A model generated the notes under the pieces. That model was not told where the DNA came from. It ran no database searches and was given only the letters and a program-made list of their open reading frames with translations. Source: Anaerolineaceae bacterium oral taxon 439 (GTDB lineage Bacteria; Chloroflexota; Anaerolineae; Anaerolineales; Anaerolineaceae). Taken from it: DNA of 64,000 bases. The DNA is taken from positions 1,302,001 through 1,366,000 of the forward strand of contig CP017039.1 of assembly GCA_001717545.1 (NCBI GenBank), given 5' to 3'. A program made the position numbers and the translations under genes. Below, in pieces: positions 34,230 through 37,938 of this stretch. The first letter of the stretch is position 1, and each line of letters opens with the position of its first letter.

Positions 34230-34238
34230 TGGTAAAAT
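34230..34238 (+). promoter_or_regulatory. Extended -10 promoter for the permuted tRNA-like RNA
   Basis: TGGTAAAAT on the plus strand; predicted start at about 34245, exactly where the outer stem of the RNA begins. The same TGGTAAAAT occurs before der at 57031. Confidence 0.55.
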
Positions 34239-34245
34239 TGTTTCA

Positions 34246-34381
34246 GGCTGGCAGCTAATCAGGTTTACTTCATACCATCATTTATCAGGTGGTTGCGGGT
34301 TCGAATCCTGCCGGAGGCGATCCGCCTTCGTAGCTCAAGGGAAGAGCGCCTGAAATAATCTGATGATTTCGCCGGCCTTTT
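34246..34381 (+). ncRNA. YrlA-like Y RNA: circularly permuted tRNA-like RNA
   Basis: The 3' half of a tRNA (34285-34319) lies before the 5' half (34324-34353), joined by ATCC. Helices: acceptor GCCTTCG (34324-34330) with CGGAGGC (34312-34318), 7 bp with one G-U; D stem GCTC/GAGC; anticodon-type stem CCTGA (34349-34353) with TCAGG (34285-34289); T arm GCGGG-TTCGAAT-CCTGC (34295-34311). T8, A14, A15-T48 Levitt pair, G18G19, T54T55C56 and a five-base variable loop are all present. There is no anticodon loop: both sides open into a leader and trailer that close with GGCTGGC (34246-34252) and GCCGGCC (34371-34377), followed by TTTT. Bacterial YrlA Y RNAs are known to carry such a closed tRNA-like domain on a Ro60-binding stem. 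Identity as YrlA is inferred; the fold is seen. Confidence 0.8.
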
Positions 34382-34410
34382 GTATTTGGCTTTAGAAAAG
34401 GGAGCTGCGG

Positions 34411-36459
34411 ATGAAGTGGATTTTCTTGAATTATCTTTTTGATCGGGGTTATTTTGTTAATTCCAGCGGAAAAGTCTGCGAGCATGTTCCTGAGACGGTT
34501 TCCTCGTTGGGAAGGCTCTTCGGTATCCGGATCGTCAGCGGCGCGGAATATCTGACGATGGAAATGATCCATACGGCGTCCGCCCGCATGGGCGTTAACG
34601 TTCCGCTCCCGTTTTATCGCGGCTTCCCGGATACCGTCCGTTCGCTCTTCCCTGAAGAACGGCTCTTTGACCAGCTGGTTCATTATATGCAGACGTATGA
34701 TTTCGGCCTTTTTGACGAGCCGGGGCGTTCGATCCTGGAACCGGAGTTCGAGCGGCTGGCGTTCGCCGAAAAGACCGAAATCCGCGATTTTTCCGTCCTG
34801 ACTGAAGCTGAAGCGGTTCGAGAGCTCGAAGAATTGGTTCGTGCCCTGCTGGCCGGAACGCGTCCGCTCAGCACGGAACAATTCGGGCTGGTTCGTGAAT
34901 TCATTCAGACGTACGGCTGGTTCCCGGAGACCTGCGCATCGAGAAATACCGCGCTGCGGTTATCTGCTGAGCTCCGGGATTTTCGGTTCGCGAAGTTTCT
35001 GGCGCTCTCCGATGTGATCAAGCTGGTTGAGGAGATTCAGTACCGCGTCTATAAAAAAGAAAACATCCGAAAGCTGAACCTCCGGAACCAGGACCGTAAG
35101 TTTATTGCCAGGATGATCGATTTCCTGTTCGAAGCGGACCGCTGCGATTTGCGTCAGTGCTGCGAGCGAAAGGCGCTCTGGTCCGGCCTGCTTCATCATC
35201 TTCATTATCGGCCGGGTTCCGCGAAGGCGGTTGAATTCGTTAACACGATCCGCGGAAAGAGAAACGGCTCGGTCAGCTCGGAATTTGAGGCGGCGATGCG
35301 GGCTGGGAAGGTCAACGACGCGGTTTCGATTCTGCTCGATCGGAAAGGCGTCGCCGCGGTTCTCCGCAGCCTGGACTATATCCTGAGCCGCTGCGGTTCG
35401 GATCGGGAAGTTCGGTCGGTACTGGATCGGATCGACGGCGAAAATCTGATCATCATGATTCAGCTGATTTTTCGGTATTCGCGCCGGGAAAACGCGTTTC
35501 GCGTTTTCAGGTTTACGCGGTTTGAGAAGCTCCGAATCCATGAGGAAACCGAATCGGAGATGCGCCGACGAAAAAGCGGTCTTCCCGTGGAGACGAGGAC
35601 GTTGGTTTTGGGCGCGCTGCGCGCGAAGCTGGAACAGAAGCTGAAAGGGCGGTCAGGAAAAGTCTACCTCGATCCGAAGATGCGGGGGATCGCGCTCCCG
35701 CTCCAGGAAACGGTCGCACAGGGCGGATTTGGGACGCTTCCGCGAGGTTCGCGGCTTCCGTTCCCTCCTGGAAAAAAGATTCGTGCGTTTACGTATTGGG
35801 AAAAAGTGGACGATATCGATCTGTCGGCGATCGGACTTCGGGAAGACGGTTCATATCAGGAATTCTCCTGGCGAACGATGTCCGATAGAACGGGGGATGG
35901 TATCGTTTATTCCGGCGATCAGACTTCCGGATATGACGGCGGGTCGGAATATTTTGATGTCGATCCGGTTTTATTCAGGAAAAGATACCCGTCCGTTCGT
36001 TATCTGGTTTTTTGTGATAACGTGTTCAGCGGCGTTCCGTTCAGCAGCTGTATCTGTCGCGCTGGCTACATGATACGCGACCGGATCGATTCGGGCGAGG
36101 TTTTTGAGCCGAAAACGGTTCAATCGTCTTTTGCGGCGAACGGTCAGAGTACGTTTTGTTATTTATTTGCGCTCGATCTGGACGCAAACGATTTTATCTG
36201 GCTGAATATTTCCCGTAAGAGTCAGGCCCGGATCGCGGGTACGACCGATTTCGCGTTTTTGTTGGATGATTTCCGGACAACCGACGTGATGAATGTTTAT
36301 GAGTTCTTTAAGCTGATGGCGACGGAGCTGGTTGACGATCCGATCGATGCCGACGTCGTCGTTACCGACGGGGCAGCTGCGCTGAAGGAGGGTGCAGAAT
36401 TGATTCGGAGCTGGGATACGGAACGCATGATCGCGCTGCTGAATTTACCCCGTGCGTAA
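34411..36459 (+). CDS. Large TerD-like domain protein next to the tRNA-like RNA
   Basis: 682 residues, no signal peptide, ATG after AAAGGGAGCTGCGG. Residues 1-430 are helical and repeat-like (for example FEAAMRAGKVNDAVSILLDR then VAAVLRSLDYILSRCG), resembling an alpha-solenoid. Residues about 430-620 resemble a TerD-type calcium-binding beta-sandwich: VYLDPKMRGIALPLQ, DDIDLSAIGL, VYSGDQTSGYDGG then SEYFDVDP, and RYLVFCDNVFSG. I recall long proteins of this layout in actinobacteria and other phyla, usually annotated only as TerD family. It is not an evident TROVE/Ro60 protein, yet it combines a helical rod with a metal-binding domain as Ro60 does. It begins 30 bases after the RNA. Confidence 0.7.
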   Translation: MKWIFLNYLFDRGYFVNSSGKVCEHVPETVSSLGRLFGIRIVSGAEYLTMEMIHTASARMGVNVPLPFYRGFPDTVRSLFPEERLFDQLVHYMQTYDFGLFDEPGRSILEPEFERLAFAEKTEIRDFSVLTEAEAVRELEELVRALLAGTRPLSTEQFGLVREFIQTYGWFPETCASRNTALRLSAELRDFRFAKFLALSDVIKLVEEIQYRVYKKENIRKLNLRNQDRKFIARMIDFLFEADRCDLRQCCERKALWSGLLHHLHYRPGSAKAVEFVNTIRGKRNGSVSSEFEAAMRAGKVNDAVSILLDRKGVAAVLRSLDYILSRCGSDREVRSVLDRIDGENLIIMIQLIFRYSRRENAFRVFRFTRFEKLRIHEETESEMRRRKSGLPVETRTLVLGALRAKLEQKLKGRSGKVYLDPKMRGIALPLQETVAQGGFGTLPRGSRLPFPPGKKIRAFTYWEKVDDIDLSAIGLREDGSYQEFSWRTMSDRTGDGIVYSGDQTSGYDGGSEYFDVDPVLFRKRYPSVRYLVFCDNVFSGVPFSSCICRAGYMIRDRIDSGEVFEPKTVQSSFAANGQSTFCYLFALDLDANDFIWLNISRKSQARIAGTTDFAFLLDDFRTTDVMNVYEFFKLMATELVDDPIDADVVVTDGAAALKEGAELIRSWDTERMIALLNLPRA

Positions 36460-37392: not shown

Positions 37393-37938
37393 TTAACCGA
37401 TGAGTTTTTCGACCAGCTTGCGGACGTCTTTCATGTCGGCGGTGGGTTCGAAGCGAGCGGCGACGTTCCCCGCCCGATCGACGACGAATTTCGTGAAGTT
37501 CCATTTTATATCTGGTGTCGACTTGTAATCCGGACGCGAAACTGCGAGCATTCCCTTCATCATCAGCGCGGCGGGGGAGGAGCCGAAGCCTTCGAAGCCT
37601 TTCTGCGCTTTCAGCCAGGTAAAGAGCGGGAGTTCGTTTGCGCCGTTGACGTCCGATTTTTTCATCTGCGGAAATTGCGTGTTGTATTTCAGCGTGCAAA
37701 ATTCCTGAATTTCGGCGTCAGAGCCGGGCGCCTGTCCGCCGAACTGGTTGCAGGGGACGTCGATGATTTCGAGCCCCTTTTCATGTAGCGCCTCGTACAT
37801 TTCTTCCAGCGGCTGATAATGCGGCGTGAATCCGCAGCCGGTCGCCGTGTTGACGACGAGGATGACTTTCCCTTTATACGCGCTGAGCGGGACGTCTTCT
37901 CCGGCGGCGTTCGGGACGGTAAAGTCATAGATGTTCAT
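37393..37938 (-). CDS. Glutathione peroxidase family thiol peroxidase
   Basis: 181 residues. Peroxidatic cysteine in NTATGCGFTPHY, Gln in PCNQFGGQ and Trp/Asn in KWNFTKFVVD form the catalytic tetrad. The enzyme is the cysteine (not selenocysteine) type; it has CTLKYN with a second cysteine, so it probably works with thioredoxin. It detoxifies hydroperoxides, a sensible gene for an anaerobe exposed to oxygen. Last gene of a minus-strand unit after rpe. Confidence 0.94.
   Translation of the reverse strand: MNIYDFTVPNAAGEDVPLSAYKGKVILVVNTATGCGFTPHYQPLEEMYEALHEKGLEIIDVPCNQFGGQAPGSDAEIQEFCTLKYNTQFPQMKKSDVNGANELPLFTWLKAQKGFEGFGSSPAALMMKGMLAVSRPDYKSTPDIKWNFTKFVVDRAGNVAARFEPTADMKDVRKLVEKLIG

Follow-up and report, generated by a model that had tools for sequence, protein, structure and literature searches.

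The small RNA gene at positions 34246-34381 (forward strand) of the window, i.e. of the whole 64,000-nucleotide stretch of DNA analysed here, is in our assessment quite probably a divergent bacterial Y RNA, with the 682-residue protein encoded next to it as its Ro60-like partner. With somewhat less assurance, we favour the view that the two represent an undescribed class of Y-type ribonucleoprotein (RNP), in which a TerD-containing Ro60-like ring would replace Ro60 and bind a constant stem with an exchangeable head. This class would be frequent in gut and rumen Firmicutes and present in some other bacteria and in phages; its head would be a permuted tRNA mimic attached by the anticodon side, a normal-order mimic attached by the acceptor side, a T arm alone, or nothing. 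The recurrence of the RNA-protein pairing in many gut bacteria and some phages points to a branch of the Ro60/Y RNA machinery that has been overlooked. To our knowledge, bacterial Y RNAs have been described with Ro60/Rsr as their partner; in the open-licence literature we found no description of a TerD-containing Ro60-like protein with Y RNAs.

Architecture of the RNA gene

The original prediction, made from the sequence alone, described the four helices of a tRNA core with the 3' half placed ahead of the 5' half, an order that is borne out by sequence, fold and pairing counts. The features of the locus are as follows.

34233-34238, forward strand: TAAAAT, -10-like hexamer, 7 nt ahead of the stem
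34246-34381, forward strand: Y RNA-like small RNA gene, leader to U run (cmscan match to RF02553 at 34273-34371, E = 1.8e-7; fold)
34246-34252, forward strand: outer helix, 5' strand GGCUGGC, partner 34371-34377
34253-34257, forward strand: AGCUA, 5' side of the internal loop and predicted protein-recognition element, part of AGCUA-N7-UUACUUC
34258-34265, forward strand: inner helix, 5' strand AUCAGGUU, partner 34357-34364 (two-sided changes at 7 of 8 pairs; partner-swap test)
34265-34271, forward strand: conserved UUACUUC, stem element common to relatives
After UUACUUC and ahead of the anticodon-type strand CAGGU, forward strand: loop region
34286-34290, forward strand: anticodon-type stem, 3' half CAGGU, partner 34348-34352, followed by GGUU
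34295-34311, forward strand: T arm, GCGGG-UUCGAAU-CCUGC (cmscan, pairing counts, covariation)
34312-34330, forward strand: acceptor-type hairpin, CGGAGGC-GAUCC-GCCUUCG (two-sided changes at 5 of 5 pairs tested)
34331-34347, forward strand: U8-A9 and D arm, GCUC-AAGGGAA-GAGC (pairing, covariation, tertiary positions)
34348-34352, forward strand: anticodon-type stem, 5' half GCCUG, followed by AAAU
34357-34364, forward strand: inner helix, 3' strand AAUCUGAU (stem scan, covariation)
34365-34370, forward strand: GAUUUC, 3' side of the internal loop, consensus RAUNYC (upstream-region comparison)
34371-34377, forward strand: outer helix, 3' strand GCCGGCC (fold, covariation)
34378-34381, forward strand: UUUU, terminator-like end (U-run count in homologous RNAs)
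34411-36459, forward strand: 682-residue predicted partner, with a Ro60-like helical ring (about residues 130-445) and a TerD-type domain (about 449-617) (ORF, homologues, structure model, profiles)

Folded alone, positions 34240-34390 reach -54.8 kcal/mol (z = -3.24), with equally good values in 2 of 200 shuffles. All pairs are formed in the T stem (5/5), acceptor-type hairpin (7/7), D stem (4/4) and anticodon-type stem (5/5), and the tertiary positions that had been named at the outset (U8, A14, A15-U48 and the D-loop GG) are all in place, as is the terminator-like U run into which the RNA was said to lead. Two details required revision. The gap of four bases reported between the halves is an acceptor loop of 5 nt closed by 7 bp, or of 3 nt in the 8-bp minimum-energy fold; and whilst leader and trailer do pair through GGCUGGC/GCCGGCC, they do not form one stem, the outer helix giving way to an internal loop (AGCUA/GAUUUC), beyond which lies an 8-bp helix (AUCAGGUU/AAUCUGAU). 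The RNA ends 29 nt ahead of the start codon of the 682-residue protein gene.

The covariance-model search proposed in the original prediction places YrlA (RF02553) as the best Rfam match of this RNA, at 38.8 bits (E = 1.8e-7) against a family cut-off of 69 bits; the sole other cmscan match listed for it is with the tmRNA model, over a 17-base T arm. Nothing in the 64-kb window reaches any Rfam cut-off, and ARAGORN finds no tRNA in it. Elsewhere in the genome the YrlA model gives five matches at E <= 10, none above 21.3 bits and all overlapping ordinary tRNA genes, and in 14 named control genomes it gives matches at E <= 0.01 in nine and above the cut-off in none. Since the YrlA model thus weakly picks up ordinary tRNAs, our case rests on covariation and not on the YrlA E-value.

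The resemblance to YrlA extends to a circularly permuted tRNA mimic with a closed acceptor hairpin, as in crystal structure PDB 6CU1 (the permutation relative to tRNA is stated in PMC11472068), to the identical order of T arm, acceptor-type hairpin and D arm, to a basal stem with internal loop and inner helix formed by the paired 5' and 3' ends, and to tandem copies adjoining a ring-protein gene. YrlA is described as a substrate of DusA and TruB, and the tethering of Rsr to PNPase is given as a further feature (PMC8394870). There are also differences: the window RNA lies below the gathering score of 69, as do several Y-like RNAs beside true TROVE genes; its stem carries AGCUA/GAUUUC and UUACUUC where the model consensus, present beside the TROVE genes of loci L166 and L167, has CGAAUGC ... 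CUUGUCG; the genome lacks a Pfam TROVE partner, the neighbouring protein having no Pfam TROVE match; and in the window's genus the identical stem also bears normal-order mimics.

Conserved stems and their exchangeable heads

Upstream regions were available for the window and 56 further loci, six of the 62 homologue loci being without upstream sequence. Allowing at most one mismatch, AGCUA-N7-UUACUUC occurs there in 95 copies, distributed over 54 of the 57 regions, and not at all on the opposite strand. The N7 segment is fully paired with a partner beside a RAUNYC-like loop in 81 of these 95 copies, compared with a mean of 12.6 and a maximum of 23 when N7 sequences were swapped (200 trials), and 56 distinct N7 sequences occur among the stem elements. 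A stricter scanner returned 76 stems in 49 of the 57 regions, as against 0.1 per Markov replicate. Across the 62 homologue loci, 94 elements lie within 1600 nt upstream of the gene and one farther away, none lies inside or downstream of it, and two are antisense.

Setting aside one match with four mismatches (L088), the remaining 75 stems carry 24 tRNA-sized inserts, i.e. 18 permuted tRNA mimics and six normal-order mimics, the latter in the window's genus only, and 51 shorter heads. In four same-genus genomes, between one and six RNAs precede the gene, with one stem and differing heads, and tRNA-like copies form tandem arrays of up to six. The normal-order mimics, found on window-type stems upstream of the gene in L047, L048, L049 and L050, score 40.8-49.9 bits, above the Rfam tRNA cut-off, and would be annotated as odd tRNAs. 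Inspected by eye, L047, L048 and L050 (-205) have a short 5' hairpin in place of the acceptor 5' strand, and in L049 and L050 (-973, -576) the acceptor stem seems complete; in L104, some 155 nt ahead of the gene, the insert is seemingly a T-arm-like hairpin alone, again by eye.

The compensatory changes that the original prediction proposed to seek in relatives are present. Among the 18 permuted RNAs, 98.9% of 443 cells are paired and two-sided changes occur at 21 of 25 pairs; 70 cells are changed on both sides, compared with 18.5 in shuffles, structures slid along the alignment pair in 36-47% of cells, and none of these measures was reached by any of 500 shuffles. The two stem helices and the loops served to pick the stem hits, and the T arm together with a 5' D-arm sequence motif to define the permuted class, so for these parts the count is biased towards the structure. 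Acceptor- and D-helix pairing played no part in the choice of permuted RNAs, and here two-sided changes are found at 5 of 5 and 3 of 4 pairs, respectively. Acceptor sequences differ from one permuted RNA to another with pairing kept, and in a forced 7-bp frame all seven pairs form in 13 of the 18. Less regularity is seen in the anticodon-type stem (3-5 of 5 pairs, with flexible spacing), which was given no weight. Of the 24 tRNA-like RNAs, 11 have A-U and another 11 G-C at positions 15 and 48, and two break the pair (the D motif of L047, UAGCUUAA, was read by eye and gives A15); because this Levitt pair is kept in 22 of 24, selection seems to act on the tertiary tRNA core.

A -10-like hexamer with at most one mismatch to TATAAT lies just 5' of 20 of the 24 tRNA-like RNAs (random positions, 8.6%) and TTTT just 3' of 15 (random, 4.8%); the figures for the shorter stems are 21/51 and 17/51. 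With hexamer and U run of their own, the tRNA-like copies look like independent small-RNA genes, and some short stems may be leaders. The latter suggestion is taken further in an alternative whereby the stems are cis-acting regulatory leaders, serving autoregulation or T-box-like sensing, with the tRNA-like part as a sensing decoration. Many minimal hairpins do lie some 60-215 nt upstream of the start codon, a hexamer being present in only 21 and a U run in only 17 of the 51 short stems, and the window RNA itself stops only 29 nt ahead of its start codon; against this, the tRNA-like copies have a hexamer of their own in 20 and a U run in 15 of 24 cases, occur in tandem, and are found on a separate contig in G312 and downstream of the gene in phage Weasels2 (see below), and we regard this explanation as quite improbable. 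Archaea and algae have permuted tRNA genes with the 3' half ahead of the 5' half, and the window RNA shares this order, its core helices and tertiary positions being complete. Nevertheless, a true permuted gene processed to a working tRNA, which had been raised as the more unusual possibility, is very improbable: there is no anticodon loop, the anticodon-type stem continuing into the basal one, the 5-nt acceptor loop has no CCA, acceptor sequences vary with pairing kept, homologous stems bear normal-order mimics or none, and ordinary tRNAs in the genome cover all 20 amino acids. To dead tRNA fragments or chance we give next to no credence; tRNA-like pieces are common near mobile genes, but these RNAs covary and are conserved across many genera, and the search for an ordinary tRNA that might explain the window RNA as such a fragment turned up no tRNA locus of the genome that could be its close parent, the best matches being short T-arm or D-arm stretches. 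The YrlA-type reading, in contrast, stands, with a permuted mimic, a closed acceptor end, attachment at the anticodon side, compensatory changes and promoter- and terminator-like signals all in evidence.

The 682-residue protein and its resemblance to Ro60

A Pfam search of the 682-residue protein gave no match, and TROVE is not among the 15 Pfam families listed for 44 members of its family. Residues 285-606 match NCBIfam NF041916 (MXAN_6230/SCO0854 RING domain family) with E = 1.8e-31, at 109.1 bits of a cut-off of 600; Streptomyces plasmid members annotated as this family were recovered by tblastn, whereas a search around two Streptomyces relatives and one from Variovorax revealed no Y-like RNA. 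Neither MXAN_6230 nor SCO0854 was found mentioned in the open-licence literature.

An AlphaFold2 model built from 44 sequences (pLDDT 83.2, pTM 0.81) was compared with known structures using VIA-align. The top matches are TerD-fold entries (PDB 2qng, 2qz7 and 3ibz) with Z of 14.2-14.5 over residues 449-617, together with 9a6r_B (Z = 14.3), followed by a radial spoke chain (Z = 12.6, 172 residues aligned); the domain at 449-617 is thus shared with TerD-fold proteins, although here it sits within a larger helical protein and identity is 12-13%. Five Ro60/TROVE entries align with the full model over 295-310 residues (model residues 130-682) at Z of 9.7-10.3, a value that possibly reflects just a common arrangement for helical repeats, and the next row has Z = 6.3. 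For a model of residues 1-445 alone, the Ro60/TROVE entries have Z of 5.8-7.3, under some unrelated rows, and are the longest alignments listed (239-263 residues). Neither model had a Foldseek match in the PDB at E <= 0.001, though absence from a structure library proves nothing.

Profile comparisons gained in strength with the number of TROVE proteins included. With nine there was nothing; with 14, P was 0.005-0.048 over four settings, one of 60 column shuffles scoring 30.7 as against 33.3; and with 76, hhalign gave P = 0.0011 at a probability of only 20.8%, with a score of 38.9 compared with at most 25.3 in 60 column shuffles, residues 148-425 being collinear with TROVE 57-372 over 256 columns. 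HMMER cross-searches between the two families found no match (best E = 0.34). Where TROVE has DVSGSM at the vWA MIDAS (DxSxS), the window-family consensus by inspection is GKVYIDPxM, its place being set by the weak alignment. With Ro60/Rsr (TROVE, PF05731; NF041674) the protein has in common a weak collinear profile match, a gene that adjoins Y-like RNAs and, probably, a helical-ring fold, predicted across about 300 residues; it differs in having a TerD-type domain and 682 residues and in lacking a Pfam match and a MIDAS motif at the equivalent place. A Ro60-like fold is probable; homology to Ro60/TROVE is likely, though not proven.

The same data admit another explanation, in which a TerD-family protein with an unrelated helical repeat has the RNA stem as its ligand and is only analogous to the Ro60/Y RNA system. 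The TerD-type domain is indeed the strongest structural match, and TROVE homology is non-significant in HMMER and weak in hhalign; on the other hand, the Ro60 entries span 295-310 residues of the full model, and UUACUUC is common to TROVE-side RNAs. We consider mere analogy rather unlikely and prefer to read the protein as the Ro60-like partner of a Y RNA, a reading in which the RNAs of canonical systems also have a part. In Xanthomonas and Rhizobium, TROVE loci carry YrlA copies of 33-95 bits beside rtcR and RtcB, the better copies with the stem signature CGAAUGC ... CUUGUCG. When 81 TROVE-side loci were put through a simple filter, 24 showed permuted tRNA-like RNAs, a few of which may be pieces of ordinary tRNAs, and many of the viral TROVE-side Y-like RNAs have GGCCGG ... 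GGUUAUC. In TROVE-side RNAs of viral contig L241 and of locus L039 of genome G341 the stem contains GGUUACUUC; that of the window class contains UUUACUUC and that of Weasels2 CUUACUUC. UUACUUC is common to the window class, L241, L039 and Weasels2, and by this shared element the RNA itself ties the window class to Y RNAs. L241 encodes a 517-residue TROVE relative with a vWA-type DTSGSM, and its two Y-like RNAs with GGUUACUUC (positions 2005-2273) may link canonical Y RNAs with the window class. On a Variovorax plasmid (L158, 2360-7563), a RING-annotated relative of the 682-residue protein lies close to rtcR, which is the place of TROVE in Xanthomonas and Rhizobium.

Distribution, phage loci and possible function

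Relatives of the protein occur in four of 13 same-genus genomes (51-53% identity) and, among named genomes, in 58 loci, whose titles are mostly Lachnospiraceae and other Clostridiales, with many rumen and gut assemblies, four Coriobacteria-type loci and two labelled planctomycete; in an even sample of the window's phylum the protein was found in one of 301 genomes, the window's own. The original prediction had envisaged a new Y RNA group in Chloroflexota: a divergent YrlA-type class is supported, but, because the relatives are mostly in genomes labelled Lachnospiraceae or other Clostridiales, its range extends beyond a single phylum. Relatives of 39-50% identity are also encoded on six viral contigs, five of which have stem elements no more than 430 nt ahead of the gene; these elements are identical in L178 and L179, probably copies of one phage, and L174 has only a related, more divergent form of the stem (by eye). 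Distant relatives were recovered by tblastn from 11 phage and 24 plasmid records. Clustering of flanking ORFs over 68 loci gave no operon partner, the protein itself being present in 65 and every other cluster in six loci at most. A glutathione peroxidase is encoded two genes downstream in the window (37393-37938), and a homologue lies right behind the relative in L090 and L092; this cluster comprises six loci by clustering as against four of 68 by tblastn with the window's own gene.

A covariance model of the 18 permuted RNAs (R1), with RNAs of the window, G304, G305 and G313 in its training set, was run on 61 genomes with strict filters. Strong matches (86.9-112.2 bits) were obtained in G000, G304, G305, G312 and G313, precisely those five of the 61 genomes that encode the protein, although only the G312 match is independent, the other four having contributed to training; this G312 copy (C97) lies on a contig other than that of its gene, in a fragmented assembly. 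The window RNA, itself a training sequence, scores 107.4 bits and is the only match in its genome. At E <= 0.01, 23 of the 61 genomes have some match. The best of these without the protein, at 60.1 bits in G341, adjoins a TROVE homologue (E = 4e-8), and those in 17 other protein-less genomes are weak, at 35.7 bits or less. A loose pattern search of the 61 genomes was uninformative, with similar counts from a backwards control.

R1 was also run on all 58 named-genome loci and on 38 chosen loci, namely 11 of 12 distant relatives (Deinococcus L159 was left out), five of the six viral loci, 20 of the 81 TROVE-side loci, picked for passing the permuted-RNA filter, and L038 and L040. Full-length matches beside the gene were found in two of the 11 distant-relative loci. 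In Rhodococcus phage Weasels2 (28.1% identity), an unannotated permuted RNA (L156, 5449-5568; 54.9 bits, E = 6.7e-10) lies directly downstream of gp266 (692 residues), with an annotated RtcB about 3 kb further on. In Ruegeria phage RpAliso (23.5% identity), two such RNAs (L171, 2635-2904; 41.7 and 36.2 bits), likewise unannotated, separate a tRNA cluster from the gene of the distant homologue, upstream of which they are placed; a tRNA nucleotidyltransferase gene comes after that of the homologue. The other nine loci gave no full-length match at E <= 0.01: beside the Streptomyces (two), Variovorax, Niallia, Vibrio, WXIN and LpeD relatives there was none at E <= 1, and L160 and L163 (gut/environmental phage) gave weak matches only. 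On gut phage contig L160, the distant homologue is near a tmRNA and a tRNA cluster, and positions 726-920 score 47.5 bits with the permuted-tmRNA model (cut-off 47). In viral contigs a Rhizobium TROVE query found no relative, and a Weasels2 query only a copy of Weasels2.

As to function, the 682-residue protein very likely binds the constant stem (AGCUA/RAUNYC, the inner helix and UUACUUC) as Ro60/Rsr does the stem of a Y RNA, which would likely make the complex a ring-type Ro60-like RNP. The tRNA-like head, the most constant part of which is the elbow (T loop, D loop and Levitt pair), could plausibly present that elbow to a second factor, a candidate being a nuclease such as PNPase, or tRNA-modifying enzymes; since mimics are grafted by either the anticodon or the acceptor side, it would be the elbow that matters and not the anticodon or CCA. 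The factor might be brought to the ring, or access of other RNAs to it gated, for decay or quality control of structured RNA. In Deinococcus radiodurans, Rsr is tethered to PNPase by Y RNA (PMC7790460), and jumbo phages with a TROVE protein, said to work with a tRNA-like partner in cells, have been described (PMC7824862). The window's genome encodes PNPase and no RtcB was found in it, so decay or quality control seems likelier here than RtcB repair, which can be dismissed for this genome for want of RtcB. Canonical YrlA with Ro60 is likewise dismissed, a Pfam TROVE (PF05731) match being absent from this and all 16 other carrier genomes. The protein may also regulate its own mRNA, by way of the window RNA in the leader or of the minimal stem-loops that closely precede the gene.

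A divergent RNP with two modes of head attachment allows the seemingly essential part (the tRNA elbow) to be told apart from what seems dispensable (the order of the halves, the anticodon, CCA), and the natural variants of this RNA class provide a clean set for testing. If the proposal is correct, Ro60-type biology reaches phages and gut anaerobes without a Pfam-detectable Ro60 (none in the 17 carrier genomes searched).

A second type of permuted RNA was observed in G312 (L040, 1465-1595) and G313 (L038, 1489-1593, reverse strand), with a stem AAGGCAC...GUGCCUU, a shared ACAGCAAUU and a U run. These RNAs score 37.9 (L040) and 45.8 (L038) bits with R1, and that of L040 precedes an ORF that, by eye, looks like ThrH.
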